32,120 nt of DNA, taken from Ectothiorhodospiraceae bacterium. Lineage in GTDB: Bacteria > Pseudomonadota > Gammaproteobacteria > Nitrococcales > AK92. Made by a program: the position numbers and the translations under genes. How positions within the stretch are numbered: the first letter of the stretch is position 1; each line of letters starts with the position of its first letter. Positions 14,790 through 19,005 of this stretch are shown in pieces. The notes below the pieces were generated by a model. That model was given only the letters and a program-made list of their open reading frames with translations. It had not been told where the DNA came from and ran no database searches. Where the stretch lies: positions 1 through 32,120 of the forward strand of contig JAJUGG010000007.1 in assembly GCA_029268285.1 (NCBI GenBank). Reading direction: 5' to 3'.

Positions 14790-16046
14790 TCAACCCCGGT
14801 ACACCGGGAAGCGACGGCAGATTTCCAGCACCTGCCCCTTCACGCGCTCGATCACGGTCTGATCCTCGATGTTATCCAGCACATCGCAGATCCAGCCGGC
14901 CAGTTCGCGCACTTCGGCTTCCTTGAAGCCTCGGGTGGTCACGGCCGGCGTACCGATACGCAGCCCTGAGGTGACGAAAGGCGACTGCGGGTCGTTGGGC
15001 ACTGTGTTCTTGTTCACGGTGATGTTGGCGCTTCCGAGCGCCGCGTCGGCGGCTTTGCCGGTAAGGCCCTTGTCGATCAGATCGATCAGGAAGAGATGAT
15101 TGTCGGTGCCACCGGAGACGACCTTGTAGCCGCGCTCCTGGATCACTTCGGCCATGGCGCGCGCATTGGCGACGACCTGCTTGGCGTAGTCGGCGAAGCT
15201 CGGCTCCAACGCCTCCTTGAAGGAGACGGCCTTGGCGGCGATCACGTGCATCAGCGGGCCGCCCTGGGTGCCGGGGAAGACCAGCGAATTGAGCTTCTTC
15301 TCGATGTCGGGATTGGCCTTGGCCAGGATCAGGCCGCCGCGCGGGCCGCGCAGGGTCTTGTGCGTGGTGGTGGTGGTGACGTCGGCGATCTGCACCGGGT
15401 TCGGATACATGCCGCCGGCGACCAGCCCTGCCACGTGTGCCATATCTACGAACAAATAGGCGCCGACGGAATCGGCGATGTCGCGAAAGCGCTGCCAATC
15501 GACCACGCGCGAGTAGGCCGAAAAGCCAGCCACGATCATCTTCGGCTTGTGCTCCTTGGCCAGGCGCTCGACCTCGTCATAGGCAATCTCGCCGGTGGAC
15601 GGGTCGATGCCGTACTGCACGGCGTGATAGATCTTGCCGGAGAAATTGGGCTTGGCGCCGTGGGTCAGGTGGCCGCCGTGGTCCAGGCTCATGCCCAGGA
15701 TGGTGTCACCGGGCTCGCACAGCGCCATGTAGACGGCGGCGTTGGCCTGCGAACCGGAATGCGGCTGCACGTTGGCATAGTCGGCCCCGAACAACTGCTT
15801 GGCACGCTCCATAGCAAGGCTCTCGGCGATGTCGACGTACTCGCAGCCACCGTAATAGCGCTTGCCCGGGTAGCCTTCGGCGTACTTGTTGGTGAGCACG
15901 CTGCCCTGCGCTTCCAGCACGCGCGGGCTGGTGTAATTCTCCGAGGCAATGAGCTCAATGTGTTCTTCCTGACGGCGGCGCTCGCCGTCAATCGCATCGG
16001 CAAGCTCGGGATCAAAGCCGGCAATTTTCATGTCGCTGGAAAACAT
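14790..16046 (-). CDS. glyA: Serine hydroxymethyltransferase
   Basis: 418 residues. Interconverts serine and glycine with transfer of a one-carbon unit to tetrahydrofolate. PLP-enzyme motifs are complete: [19 protein letters not shown] (31-49), YYGGCEYVD (64-72), [10 protein letters not shown] (97-106), [12 protein letters not shown] (201-212), and the PLP lysine Lys230 in [15 protein letters not shown]. The ATG at 16046 is supported by a GAGAGGAA ribosome site; the open frame extends much further upstream but that part has no homology I recognise. It heads the ten-gene minus-strand run and links with purU (one-carbon pool) elsewhere in the window. Confidence 0.97.
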
Positions 16047-16088
16047 GCGGGTTCCTCTCGATGGGTCCGGGGCAAGAAAAGGCGCGAA

Positions 16089-16094
16089 ATTATA
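16089..16094 (-). promoter_or_regulatory. Candidate glyA -10 box
   Basis: On the minus strand this is a perfect TATAAT, 43 bases before the glyA start. No good -35 hexamer is seen 16-18 bases upstream; a perfect CCCCGGGG palindrome occupies the spacer, which may mean activator control. It would drive the whole glyA-to-pgpA run. Confidence 0.5.
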
Positions 16095-16147
16095 AACGAT
16101 ATCCCCGGGGACTGCATGAGTTTGCGGAGGAACGACAAAAGCTTCAA

Positions 16148-16178
16148 GCGAAGGCCGACGCTTGCGGCCGACCTTCGC
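16148..16178. terminator. Hairpin between the beta-helix gene and glyA
   Basis: GCGAAGG.. at 16148 pairs with ..CCTTCGC ending at 16178, forming a stem of about 12 bp when G-T pairs are allowed. It lies about 77 bases after the stop of the minus-strand gene that ends at 16255 and before the glyA promoter, so it probably ends that transcript. Only short T-runs follow on either strand. Confidence 0.5.
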
Positions 16179-16254
16179 TGTTTTGCGAAAAGCGTGTACT
16201 GATGGCGGTGCCTCCGCAAAGGCGCCGGGCAAGCAAGGGCAAAGCCGCTCTCGA

Positions 16255-18231
16255 TCAGTCCACCGGAAAGGCCGTCCAGCCCGCATACCAGGGCCGGACA
16301 CTGCCGGGCCGCACGGCGCCCAGGAAGGTCGCAGCCTCATCGAAGAATTCTTCCTTGGGAATGGGAGCGGCATTGTTCAGCGCCGGCGAACCGCTATGAG
16401 GCACGAAATCGGGCATGATCGGGTCGAAAGCTTGCGACGACAGCATCGGGTCCACGCCCAGTCCGATAAAGCGCGCTGGGTCGCGCAGATAGGAGGCTTC
16501 ATCGAAGCCGCCATCATCGTCGCCGCTTTCGTCGGCCGCATAGGTTGCACCCTCAAGCCCGACGTCAAAAATGATGCCGTGGGCCAGTGAAAGCGCGCCG
16601 GTTTGGGCAAGCAAACTGGTCGCGATATCGCGAACATCGATCGCTTCCAAGCCAAAACCGCTGACGATGAAGTTCCGTAGAGTAAGGCCCGTGCCCCGGC
16701 GCAGCGTCATGCCGCGCTGGGCAATCTTTCGACTCCCCGAACCGAGCAGCGTGACGTTGTAGAGCACCGGCGCGGAGCGCGGCAAAGCGTCGTGATCGTC
16801 TGTGTTGTTGTCGCTTTCGAAACCGTTATCGCCGGCGTCGCCGTGTTGCTGCACAATGAAGAATTGACCGCGACCCTGCCAGCCCAAGTCCCAGTCGATG
16901 GAATCGTCGCCGGCGCCGGTGATCACGATATTGCGCAGATCGGCGTCTCCCCCGAACAGCTCGATGCCGTCGTCCAGCGCCTTATGCACCTGAACGTTGC
17001 GCACGATGGTCTTGTGCCCGCATCCGCCCAAGGTAAGCCCGTTCAACTCATTGTTCGCAAAGGCTTCGAAACCCGCGAACTCAATGCGCACGTACTCAAG
17101 AACACCGCAGTTTGCGCCTATTTCGCTGCCGCCGAATGCGCCTCGAGGGTCCTTGTCCACGATGCCCTCGATGAAGGCGCTTTCCTCGTTCACCGGTGCA
17201 TTACCTAGCAGCACGACACCGCCCCAGTCGCCACGACGACGCTCCCCGACCGGCGCGGCGCTAGTGAAAACGATGGGTTGATCAGGCGTGCCGCGCGCGT
17301 ACAAGGTCGCGTCACGCGTCACGATGAGCGCCGAGCCTTGCTCGCCGAGCACGCGCACACCGGGCTCTATCGTCAACGAGGCATCTCCTTCGACGTAAAC
17401 GAGGCCTTCGAGCAGGTAAGTCTGCTCTGCCCGCCAGACCGTGGAGCTGCGAATCGGGCCGGCGACTCGCTCTTCCACGACCTCCTGCGGGTGCTCCGCG
17501 ATCGCACTATCGACAACAGCAAACGGTGCACCCAGCTGCATCCAGAGCAGCGCGCCCACCGCGCCAACCACACTTGCAATCGCGAGCGGCCAGGCCAAGG
17601 AACGACGCTGCTGCGACACCACGACGGTCGGCCGCACCCGCGCCAACTCTTCTTCGAGGATGTTTTGGGCGTGGCGAATAGATAAGCGGCTGCTACGCAG
17701 GTAGGTATCGAACAGCTTGAGGCGATCGTTCTCACCCAGCACGCCGTCCCGCTGCAGCAAACGCACCGCACCTCGGCATTCATCGCCCCAATTCAGAATC
17801 GGCAGCCCCAGCGCCTCGCGCCGCTCGTTCTCGATCGTCTCCGCGCTGCGCAGGTCGATACGCAGAAGGCGGCACTGTTGATCCAGCGTCCGCCGCCCAT
17901 CCACGCTCAGGGGCGGACTCGACAACACGGCATCCAGAGCCTGCTCGTAGTGCTCGCGCGCCACCTGAGCGCGCGCTCGGGAAACGCCCTGTTTATGGGC
18001 GCTCGAACTCGTCACCGAAACGGCGTCGGCAGCCGTCCGCTCAAGCCACGGCAGCAGCGCCTCGGCCTGCTCGCGCAACTCTTCGACGCCCAGGTTTTTC
18101 GCACGCTGCAAGCAGCGCTTGAGCAACTCGGGCTGCTGACGCAGGCTCACATAGGAAATCTGCTCGCCGGTATGTTTCTTGTAGCTGTTAATGAAGGGCC
18201 AGAGCAGAGCCTGAACGTTTCTCTCATGCAT
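16255..18231 (-). CDS. Membrane-anchored right-handed beta-helix protein with cytoplasmic helical domain
   Basis: 658 residues. Residues 1-210 are soluble, helical and charged, with two similar helical units (about 107-137 and 163-195; each has L....R..L...L...I/R.A..I..E). One membrane helix follows (about 211-231, [21 protein letters not shown]). Residues 270-560 look like a parallel beta-helix: [40 protein letters not shown]...[66 protein letters not shown]. An acidic stretch [11 protein letters not shown] (568-578) may bind calcium. The outer part resembles surface-exposed beta-helix proteins seen in myxobacteria and Bacteroidetes, which there are usually exported without this cytoplasmic part. 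Topology is inferred as N-in/C-out. Function unknown. Confidence 0.8.
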
Positions 18232-18311
18232 GTCCTTGTCTCAAGAGCCGAATTCCAGCGACTCATGATCAGGCACGCATATGACCGTTTTAATACAAAT
18301 TGATGTTTTCC

Positions 18312-18331
18312 CTGTTTTTACCAAAAAACAG
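18312..18331. repeat. AT-rich hairpin in the divergent spacer
   Basis: CTGTTTTT (18312-18319) and AAAAACAG (18324-18331) are perfect 8-base inverted arms around a 4-base loop. It sits between the divergent beta-helix and rimB genes. It could be an operator or cruciform; it is too weak to be a good terminator. Confidence 0.5.
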
Positions 18332-18356
18332 TGCCCGCCGGCTTTGTGGATTTCGC

Positions 18357-18385
18357 TTGTCACGTCCCCATGTTTGCTCTACAAA
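18357..18385 (+). promoter_or_regulatory. Candidate rimB-rimK promoter
   Basis: TTGTCA (18357-18362) and TACAAA (18380-18385) are separated by exactly 17 bases, a fair sigma-70 match (5/6 and 4/6). Transcription would start near 18391, inside the left arm of the 12-bp inverted repeat that follows. Confidence 0.4.
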
Positions 18386-18445
18386 GTGCCTGCCGCTCCG
18401 GCTCCGGGGAAGCAGCAAGGCTTCTCTCGCCGTCGGCAGGCACTT
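18384..18445. repeat. Perfect 12-bp inverted repeat in the rimB leader
   Basis: AAGTGCCTGCCG (18384-18395) and CGGCAGGCACTT (18434-18445) are exact reverse complements around a 38-base GC-rich centre. It lies 62 bases before the rimB start and could form a large leader hairpin or be a decayed mobile repeat. Confidence 0.7.
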
Positions 18446-18507
18446 CGCCTGTGTAACGGGGCCGCCCCGATGCTCGCGAAAACTACCCAACACTTCGAAA
18501 AGTTCAT

Positions 18508-19005
18508 ATGAGGCGTAAATTCCAACCTCGCCACTGGGTCGGCTGGAGAGAATGGGTGGCTCTGCCCGGGCTTGGGATCGAGACCATCAAGGCGAAAATC
18601 GACACCGGCGCTAGCACCTCGGCTCTCCATGCGATCCATATTTCGCGCTTCCAGGAGAACGGCCGCGACCGGGTTGCGTTCGAAGTGCATCCGTTGCAAA
18701 AGCGCACCGACGTGACCGTGCGCTGCGTGGCGGACATCCACGACGAGCGCCATGTAACCAGCTCGACTGGCCACCGCGAGATGCGCATCGTCATCCGCAC
18801 GCCGCTGCTGGTAGCCGGCCGCACGTGGCCGATCGAGCTAACCTTGGCGAATCGAGACACCATGGGCTTTCGCATGCTACTAGGCCGCTCGGCCATGCAC
18901 GGCCGCATCCTGGTGGACCCGAGCGCATCCTACCTCGCCGGAGCTGCGGATCAGCCCGTCGCCAGCCGCCGTCACGACGAGCATTTACCTGGGAGCGATA
19001 AATGA
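18508..19005 (+). CDS. rimB: RimB: retropepsin-like protease linked to RimK (putative ATP-dependent zinc protease family)
   Basis: 165 residues. Shows the retropepsin-like layout of the PF05618 family: [14 protein letters not shown], then the active-site loop [15 protein letters not shown] with Asp32-Thr-Gly (32-34), and the closing flap [16 protein letters not shown] (123-137). In Pseudomonas, RimB works with RimK to control how many glutamates are on ribosomal protein S6. Its stop overlaps the rimK start (ATGA), so both are made together. No rimA-like gene lies in front. ATG at 18508 follows a weak purine-rich site. Confidence 0.88.

Follow-up and report, generated by a model that had tools for sequence, protein, structure and literature searches.

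What does a protein do when a single membrane helix joins a large, presumably periplasmic beta-helix to a helical cytoplasmic part that matches no protein family? The question is raised by a single open frame of 658 codons, encoding 658 aa, on the minus strand of the window, that is, the whole stretch of 32,120 nucleotides analysed here, which is an entire contig from a 3.1 Mb draft genome. The initial annotation, made from the sequence alone, saw a beta-helix surface-type protein with one membrane helix and proposed either a one-component sensor or an envelope anchor. Pfam and NCBIfam offered no family for the window protein (E ≤ 5) or for its N-terminal part. The gene and its putative end signal are as follows.

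16255..18231, minus strand: whole gene for the predicted bitopic protein of 658 aa (open frame; a near-full-length relative in genome G006 is 46% identical)
16145..16164, minus strand: hairpin with T-rich tail, candidate terminator in the spacer before glyA (sole terminator-like match in 15900-18700)

The gene stands alone, as had been proposed: 276 bp separate it from a divergent upstream pair of Zn-protease/RimK genes and 208 bp from glyA, which lies downstream on the same strand, with ribD, riboflavin synthase, ribBA and nusB farther downstream in the window. An AAGGA-type ribosome site is visible immediately 5' of the ATG. The promoter scan found no sigma-70-like site, and the terminator-like site is not significant (one match in 15900-18700 versus a mean of 3.3 in shuffles). 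No second copy of the gene was found in its own genome at E ≤ 1e-3, and the nine neighbours tested included no glycan genes, no sigma-factor gene and no NosFY-type transporter membrane gene.

The C-terminal part of the protein contains the following features.

16444..17475, minus strand: right-handed parallel beta-helix, predicted periplasmic, residues 253-596 (AlphaFold model, VIA comparison)
16807..17052, minus strand: acidic ladder, residues 394-475 (NELNG / DDGIE / DDSIDWD / GDNGFESDN), at the same turn of four successive rungs
17107..17109, minus strand: Cys375, covarying with Cys404
17020..17022, minus strand: Cys404, predicted disulphide partner of Cys375 (covariation)
16258..16443, minus strand: C-terminal tail, residues 597-658, with conserved EFWDE..GA.RPG..W..GWT.F (alignment A2)

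The AlphaFold model, made from the window protein and 33 relatives, has a mean pLDDT of 89, with the beta-helix mostly above 90 and the tail rich in coil. The closest PDB fold to the beta-helix was NosD (7o0y_A; VIA Z 22.7, rmsd 3.4, 274 residues aligned, 10% identity), tied with AlgE6, Pel9A and others; more broadly, NosD, the AlgE/AlgG epimerases, Pel9A and PL6 lyases scored at Z of about 19-23, with rmsd mostly 3-4 over 240-300 residues. The 50 matches listed by VIA share the fold at identities of 6-16%. Foldseek gave no match for the beta-helix at E ≤ 0.001, its profile found no solved-structure sequence at E ≤ 0.1, and the Pfam Beta_helix family appeared only below its cut-off, in two relatives (E 0.006 and 0.026). 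The model thus supports a right-handed parallel beta-helix well, and the fold does not reveal the function. A fold search had been suggested for both ends of the protein; it succeeded for the beta-helix (Z about 22, the top rows aligning about 260-295 residues) and gave no convincing solved fold for the N-terminal part.

D420, D421, E424, D443, D446 and Q456 are invariant in all 58 aligned proteins, membrane forms as well as the 23 secreted ones, and the stacking of acids with a Trp on one face of the beta-helix suggests a cation or sugar site. Cys375 and Cys404 covary: the pair is Cys-Cys in 54 of the 58 proteins and Ser-Val in four (one clade in the tree), with no mixed pairs, and the beta-helix part holds two cysteines in 79 of 80 relatives and three in the other one. 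This pairing suggests a disulphide and hence a periplasmic location.

Between the two parts lies one hydrophobic stretch only, as the initial annotation had recognised (best window residues 211-229; model helix 214-233).

17533..17601, minus strand: single transmembrane helix, residues 211-233, putative N-in type II anchor (hydropathy and charge bias)

In the window protein, Arg precedes the stretch and is absent from the 15 residues after it. Of 80 relatives, 71 carry more Lys plus Arg before the helix than behind it, 3 carry the same number on both sides and 6 carry fewer before it. From this charge bias, the exported or lipoprotein homologues described below and the coupled cysteines, we infer that the N-terminus is inside and the beta-helix periplasmic. 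Sequence and model together thus give a cytoplasmic domain, one membrane helix and an extracytoplasmic domain, with the topology read from charge and homology; a cytoplasmic output domain of known type, which a bitopic one-component receptor should have, was not detected with Pfam or NCBIfam at E ≤ 5. Joints of low pLDDT occur at residues 72-80, 202-215 and 237-248.

The N-terminal part is helical, with ten helices within residues 3-198 in the AlphaFold model. It falls into three pieces, the first of which we call the LW module.

18022..18231, minus strand: LW module, residues 1-70, helical, presumably cytoplasmic, common to the short-form relatives (profile-profile match, model helices)
17803..17952, minus strand: helical unit A, residues 94-143, an addition of the long form (alignment A3)
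17632..17796, minus strand: helical unit B, residues 146-200, with weak similarity to unit A (shuffle and hhalign tests)

The LW module, which in the short forms has about 70 residues and the pattern LW.LK....FIHFN.LL.DP.YR..I...A..S....R.L, has model helices at 3-21, 27-32, 34-46 and 50-72 in the window protein. Profile-profile comparison indicates that the long-form and short-form modules share ancestry (probability 95% over 54 columns, with E 2.6e-8 for a single target). Units A and B are each modelled as a three-helix unit of about 50 residues, with helices at 148-159, 167-178 and 185-198 in unit B. Their mutual similarity is weak, as 94 of 2000 shuffles score equally high and the profile-profile match has E 0.009 and probability 4.6%. 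Two similar helical units had been proposed for the inner part; they correspond to residues 94-200, and residues 1-70 proved to be a separate module. Among the relatives examined, units A and B are confined to the window gene and three others, and the A3 profile matched three of 369 genomes of the class at E ≤ 1e-40 (the window's own, G006 and G291). Nine further A3 matches in these genomes, at E 0.007-0.036, were weak and taken as chance.

The N-terminal model (pLDDT 80) found nothing convincing among solved folds, the best Foldseek E being 0.4. EMSY, the best VIA match (Z 7.7), falls short of the score regarded as reliable for helical models. Augmin and syntaxin coils and a designed protein, matched by the N-terminal profile among PDB sequences at E 0.04-0.3, were treated as composition matches, as were the designed helical repeats matched by the LW profile along some 25 residues (best E 5e-7, others weaker). 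Across Pfam/NCBIfam, PDB profiles, Foldseek and VIA, no relative of known function was detected for the LW module.

To place the protein among its relatives, we used the best 80 of 299 matches from a scan of genome contigs; alignment A2 comprises 33 of these 80 and the window protein. The 80 comprise 79 Pseudomonadota (25 Marinobacteraceae, 22 Alcanivoracaceae, 10 Spongiibacteraceae and others) and one Myxococcota; the culturable species Marinobacter algicola and Alcanivorax jadensis are among them. A short form, in which a linker and one membrane helix connect the LW module to the same beta-helix, is found in 73 of them; the count combines a regular expression with the alignment and a list of loci that had been set aside, and the profile that finds the modules again was trained on those modules. 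The linker from LW module to membrane measures 9-35 residues (median 20) in these short forms and is disorder-prone and rich in R, A, S and P. The long form of the window protein, with a diverged LW module and two helical units, recurs in three loci, L033, L034 (Arhodomonas aquaeolei) and L096, and L094, L104 and L112 are without an LW module. At one locus (L005/L051) a stop codon falls within the LW module that is intact in a near relative (L006/L058), pointing to a pseudogene or a sequencing error; at another (L031/L209, genome G343) the in-frame remainder is the C-terminal tail alone, likely a remnant or an assembly fault. The gene is near single copy: of 50 relatives' genomes, 47 gave LW matches, 48 in total, and the open frames around them have 527-702 codons, a length typical of the family's genes.

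The initial annotation implied that such a fusion is rare, which does not hold given the 73 short forms. Its proviso that the fusion might prove common and already characterised came true in its first half (73 of 80 short, three more long); search listings and the starts of abstracts yielded no description of the family. It is thus widespread, new to Pfam/NCBIfam and apparently undescribed. The suggested phylogenetic profile places the fusion in many marine proteobacteria; in the window's own order, just 4 of 54 genomes, its own included, match at E ≤ 1e-3, and besides its own one match is full length, so the gene is patchy and dispensable there. The host is probably a halophile close to Arhodomonas aquaeolei, to which the relative in G006, of the same order, is assigned.

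In a quick tree of 58 beta-helices, which leaves out nine genome-search loci lacking the anchor string DWGG, most gammaproteobacterial membrane forms cluster. The four long forms need three changes on this tree, yet may still have a single origin. No neighbour gene is conserved across genera (assigned by eye) in the 80 loci. A cluster that we take, from a motif read by eye, to be GMC oxidoreductases occurs at 19 of these loci (for example in Alcanivorax; L048 and similar loci); at 17 it immediately precedes the family gene and shares its strand. An ArgH-like cluster occurs at 11.

Both parts of the protein are found with other partners. On the inner side, L104, from one myxobacterial MAG, has a Ser/Thr kinase (PF00069, E 2.3e-44), then a membrane stretch, then the same beta-helix; in its sequence the usual kinase motifs are visible as HRDLKPSN and as DWG, the latter replacing DFG. 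Genome G457 encodes two proteins in which a different, unnamed N-terminal domain precedes a membrane stretch and the same beta-helix. They stand beside an LW protein in the quick tree, nested in the membrane forms (SH-aLRT 95 and 100), and this third type of N-terminal domain (L094, L142, L145) matches nothing in NCBIfam and no Pfam family below E 0.2. On the outer side, the LW module of a protein in G354 (L131) is followed by a membrane stretch, a PstS-like domain (PBP_like_2, 8.3e-29) and an OmpA domain (2.4e-6), and frame reading indicates the same plan in G441 (L137) and G447 (L139); this architecture looks undescribed. LW-like stretches also occur in short lone frames of about 90-100 aa in three genomes of one small family (L132, L133, L134; E 3e-7 to 8e-6), which at L132 and L134 adjoin genes that by eye encode a permease and a sigma-54-type activator. 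A match in G455 (L138) lies in a 138-aa frame at a contig end, and matches in G369 (E 0.002-0.004), within a coiled-coil-like frame, were set aside. Swapping on either side of the membrane helix is the behaviour of a receptor family, and anchors fit it too.

Exported beta-helix kin in myxobacteria and Bacteroidetes, proposed in the initial annotation, were indeed found: of 282 Myxococcota genomes, 51 contain beta-helix relatives at E ≤ 1e-100, and relatives also lie on Bacteroides/Parabacteroides plasmids. Of 29 myxobacterial loci, five lacking the DWGG string were left out of the display; nearly all of the 24 displayed begin, by eye, with an export signal, often a lipobox. The kinase fusion L104 (also L213; G456:C112) groups in the quick tree with a myxobacterial lipoprotein. 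At two further loci, G508:C17 (L210) and G456:C162 (L212), a kinase, a TPR-type protein (by eye) and a beta-helix lipoprotein follow one another on one strand, and these kinases match that of L104 at E of about 1e-58 to 3e-59. The kinase fusion occurs at one of the 80 loci, and a search of 71 genomes from the class of L104 at E ≤ 1e-135 showed no other. Nor were kinases enriched beside myxobacterial beta-helix genes (8 of 44 windows versus 5 of 18 controls). The 44 windows were part of those around the 59 beta-helix matches listed and three more matches, and were scored at E < 1e-10; the controls, 18 of 20 with two falling off the contig, were scored at E ≤ 1e-5, all five of their matches also being below 1e-10. 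Since kinases are common in Myxococcota and adjacency alone is not enriched, we weigh the one fusion and two gene orders as suggestive of a kinase link, not as statistical evidence.

The reading we prefer, while according it slightly less than even chances, is that the window protein is a bitopic inner-membrane receptor or adaptor, whose periplasmic beta-helix, probably glycan- or cation-binding, is coupled to a cytoplasmic docking module. The beta-helix would bind its ligand along the conserved acidic, Trp-bearing face, most likely an envelope glycan or a cation-glycan complex, and the single helix would link it to the docking module, consisting of the LW module and here enlarged by the two helical units, which may hold or release a soluble partner. 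Because the linker between LW module and membrane is short and mostly disorder-prone in relatives, any signal, presumably inward, would more likely depend on clustering, on tethering or on regulated cleavage than on the helix acting as a rigid rod. Of the two roles first proposed, both fit the data; domain swapping on both membrane sides and the myxobacterial kinase link favour the sensor or adaptor, and the version combining LW, PstS-like and OmpA domains fits an anchor about as well. In the anchor or scaffold alternative, the beta-helix would attach to peptidoglycan or a different envelope polymer, the cytoplasmic module would keep a cytoplasmic or membrane machine at that site, and no signal would pass. 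OmpA-type domains belong to a family that binds peptidoglycan, and the pairing of the LW module with one in G354, the flexible linkers, suited to a tether, and the want of a conserved regulator next door all agree with such a role. The kinase fusion of this beta-helix in L104 and the kinase, TPR and beta-helix order at two more loci speak for signalling at least there, and on balance we rank a pure anchor as the main rival, less likely than the receptor or adaptor.

Many of the top structural neighbours are glycan-active (AlgE, AlgG, Pel9A, PL6 lyases), though NosD, which is not, ties with them, and the invariant acidic ladder is compatible with lyase or epimerase activity. The beta-helix might thus be a polysaccharide lyase, epimerase or hydrolase that the N-terminus merely anchors or regulates. 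This we regard as improbable, given the low identities of the 50 listed matches to a common fold, the failure to match any solved-structure sequence or Pfam enzyme family, the near single copy per genome and the lack of glycan genes among the nine neighbours. It would be more surprising still, and we give it hardly any weight, if the protein were an ordinary exported beta-helix with a long, unimportant leader, as the lipoprotein-like appearance of most myxobacterial relatives displayed could suggest: the LW module is conserved in sequence in the 73 short forms, gives E values down to 5.6e-31 with a profile to which such rows had contributed, and occurs joined to other partners. The possibility, raised at the outset, that the N-terminal domain is a known export domain does not hold: Pfam and NCBIfam contain no match for it, and in one relative a cytoplasmic kinase stands in its place.

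If the sensor or adaptor reading is true, a function would be gained for a mostly single-copy family in many Alcanivoracaceae, Marinobacteraceae and Spongiibacteraceae, marine oil degraders included; beta-helices would join the ectodomains of bacterial receptors, and the LW module would be a new cytoplasmic signalling or docking domain. A wider and more doubtful generalisation, which we put at about one chance in three, is that a class of periplasmic beta-helices reads the state of envelope glycans through interchangeable cytoplasmic outputs, namely a kinase in myxobacteria, the LW module with optional units in marine Gammaproteobacteria and a third module, and that the LW module serves more than one periplasmic sensor. 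If the protein is an anchor, it would represent a new means of holding a cytoplasmic machine at the envelope.

Several known systems resemble the window protein in part. NosD is likewise a periplasmic right-handed beta-helix, and differs in its low identity, in the absence of a Pfam match and in that no NosFY-type gene is among the nine neighbours. The exported or lipoprotein beta-helices of Myxococcota, Bacteroidota and Gammaproteobacteria have a related beta-helix with the acidic ladder; judged by eye, their N-termini are export signals or lipoboxes, whereas the window protein has a cytoplasmic module and a membrane helix instead. RsgI-type membrane anti-sigma factors of Clostridium thermocellum, in outline, consist of a cytoplasmic N-terminal module, one membrane helix and a polysaccharide-binding extracytoplasmic domain; unlike them, the window protein matches no anti-sigma domain and has no sigma-factor gene among the nine neighbours. 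PknB-type transmembrane Ser/Thr kinases differ in that the window protein has no Pkinase match and carries inside the LW module and two helical units, of no known family. They share with it an N-in orientation, one membrane helix and an extracytoplasmic C-terminal domain, and L104 is exactly such a kinase bearing this beta-helix.
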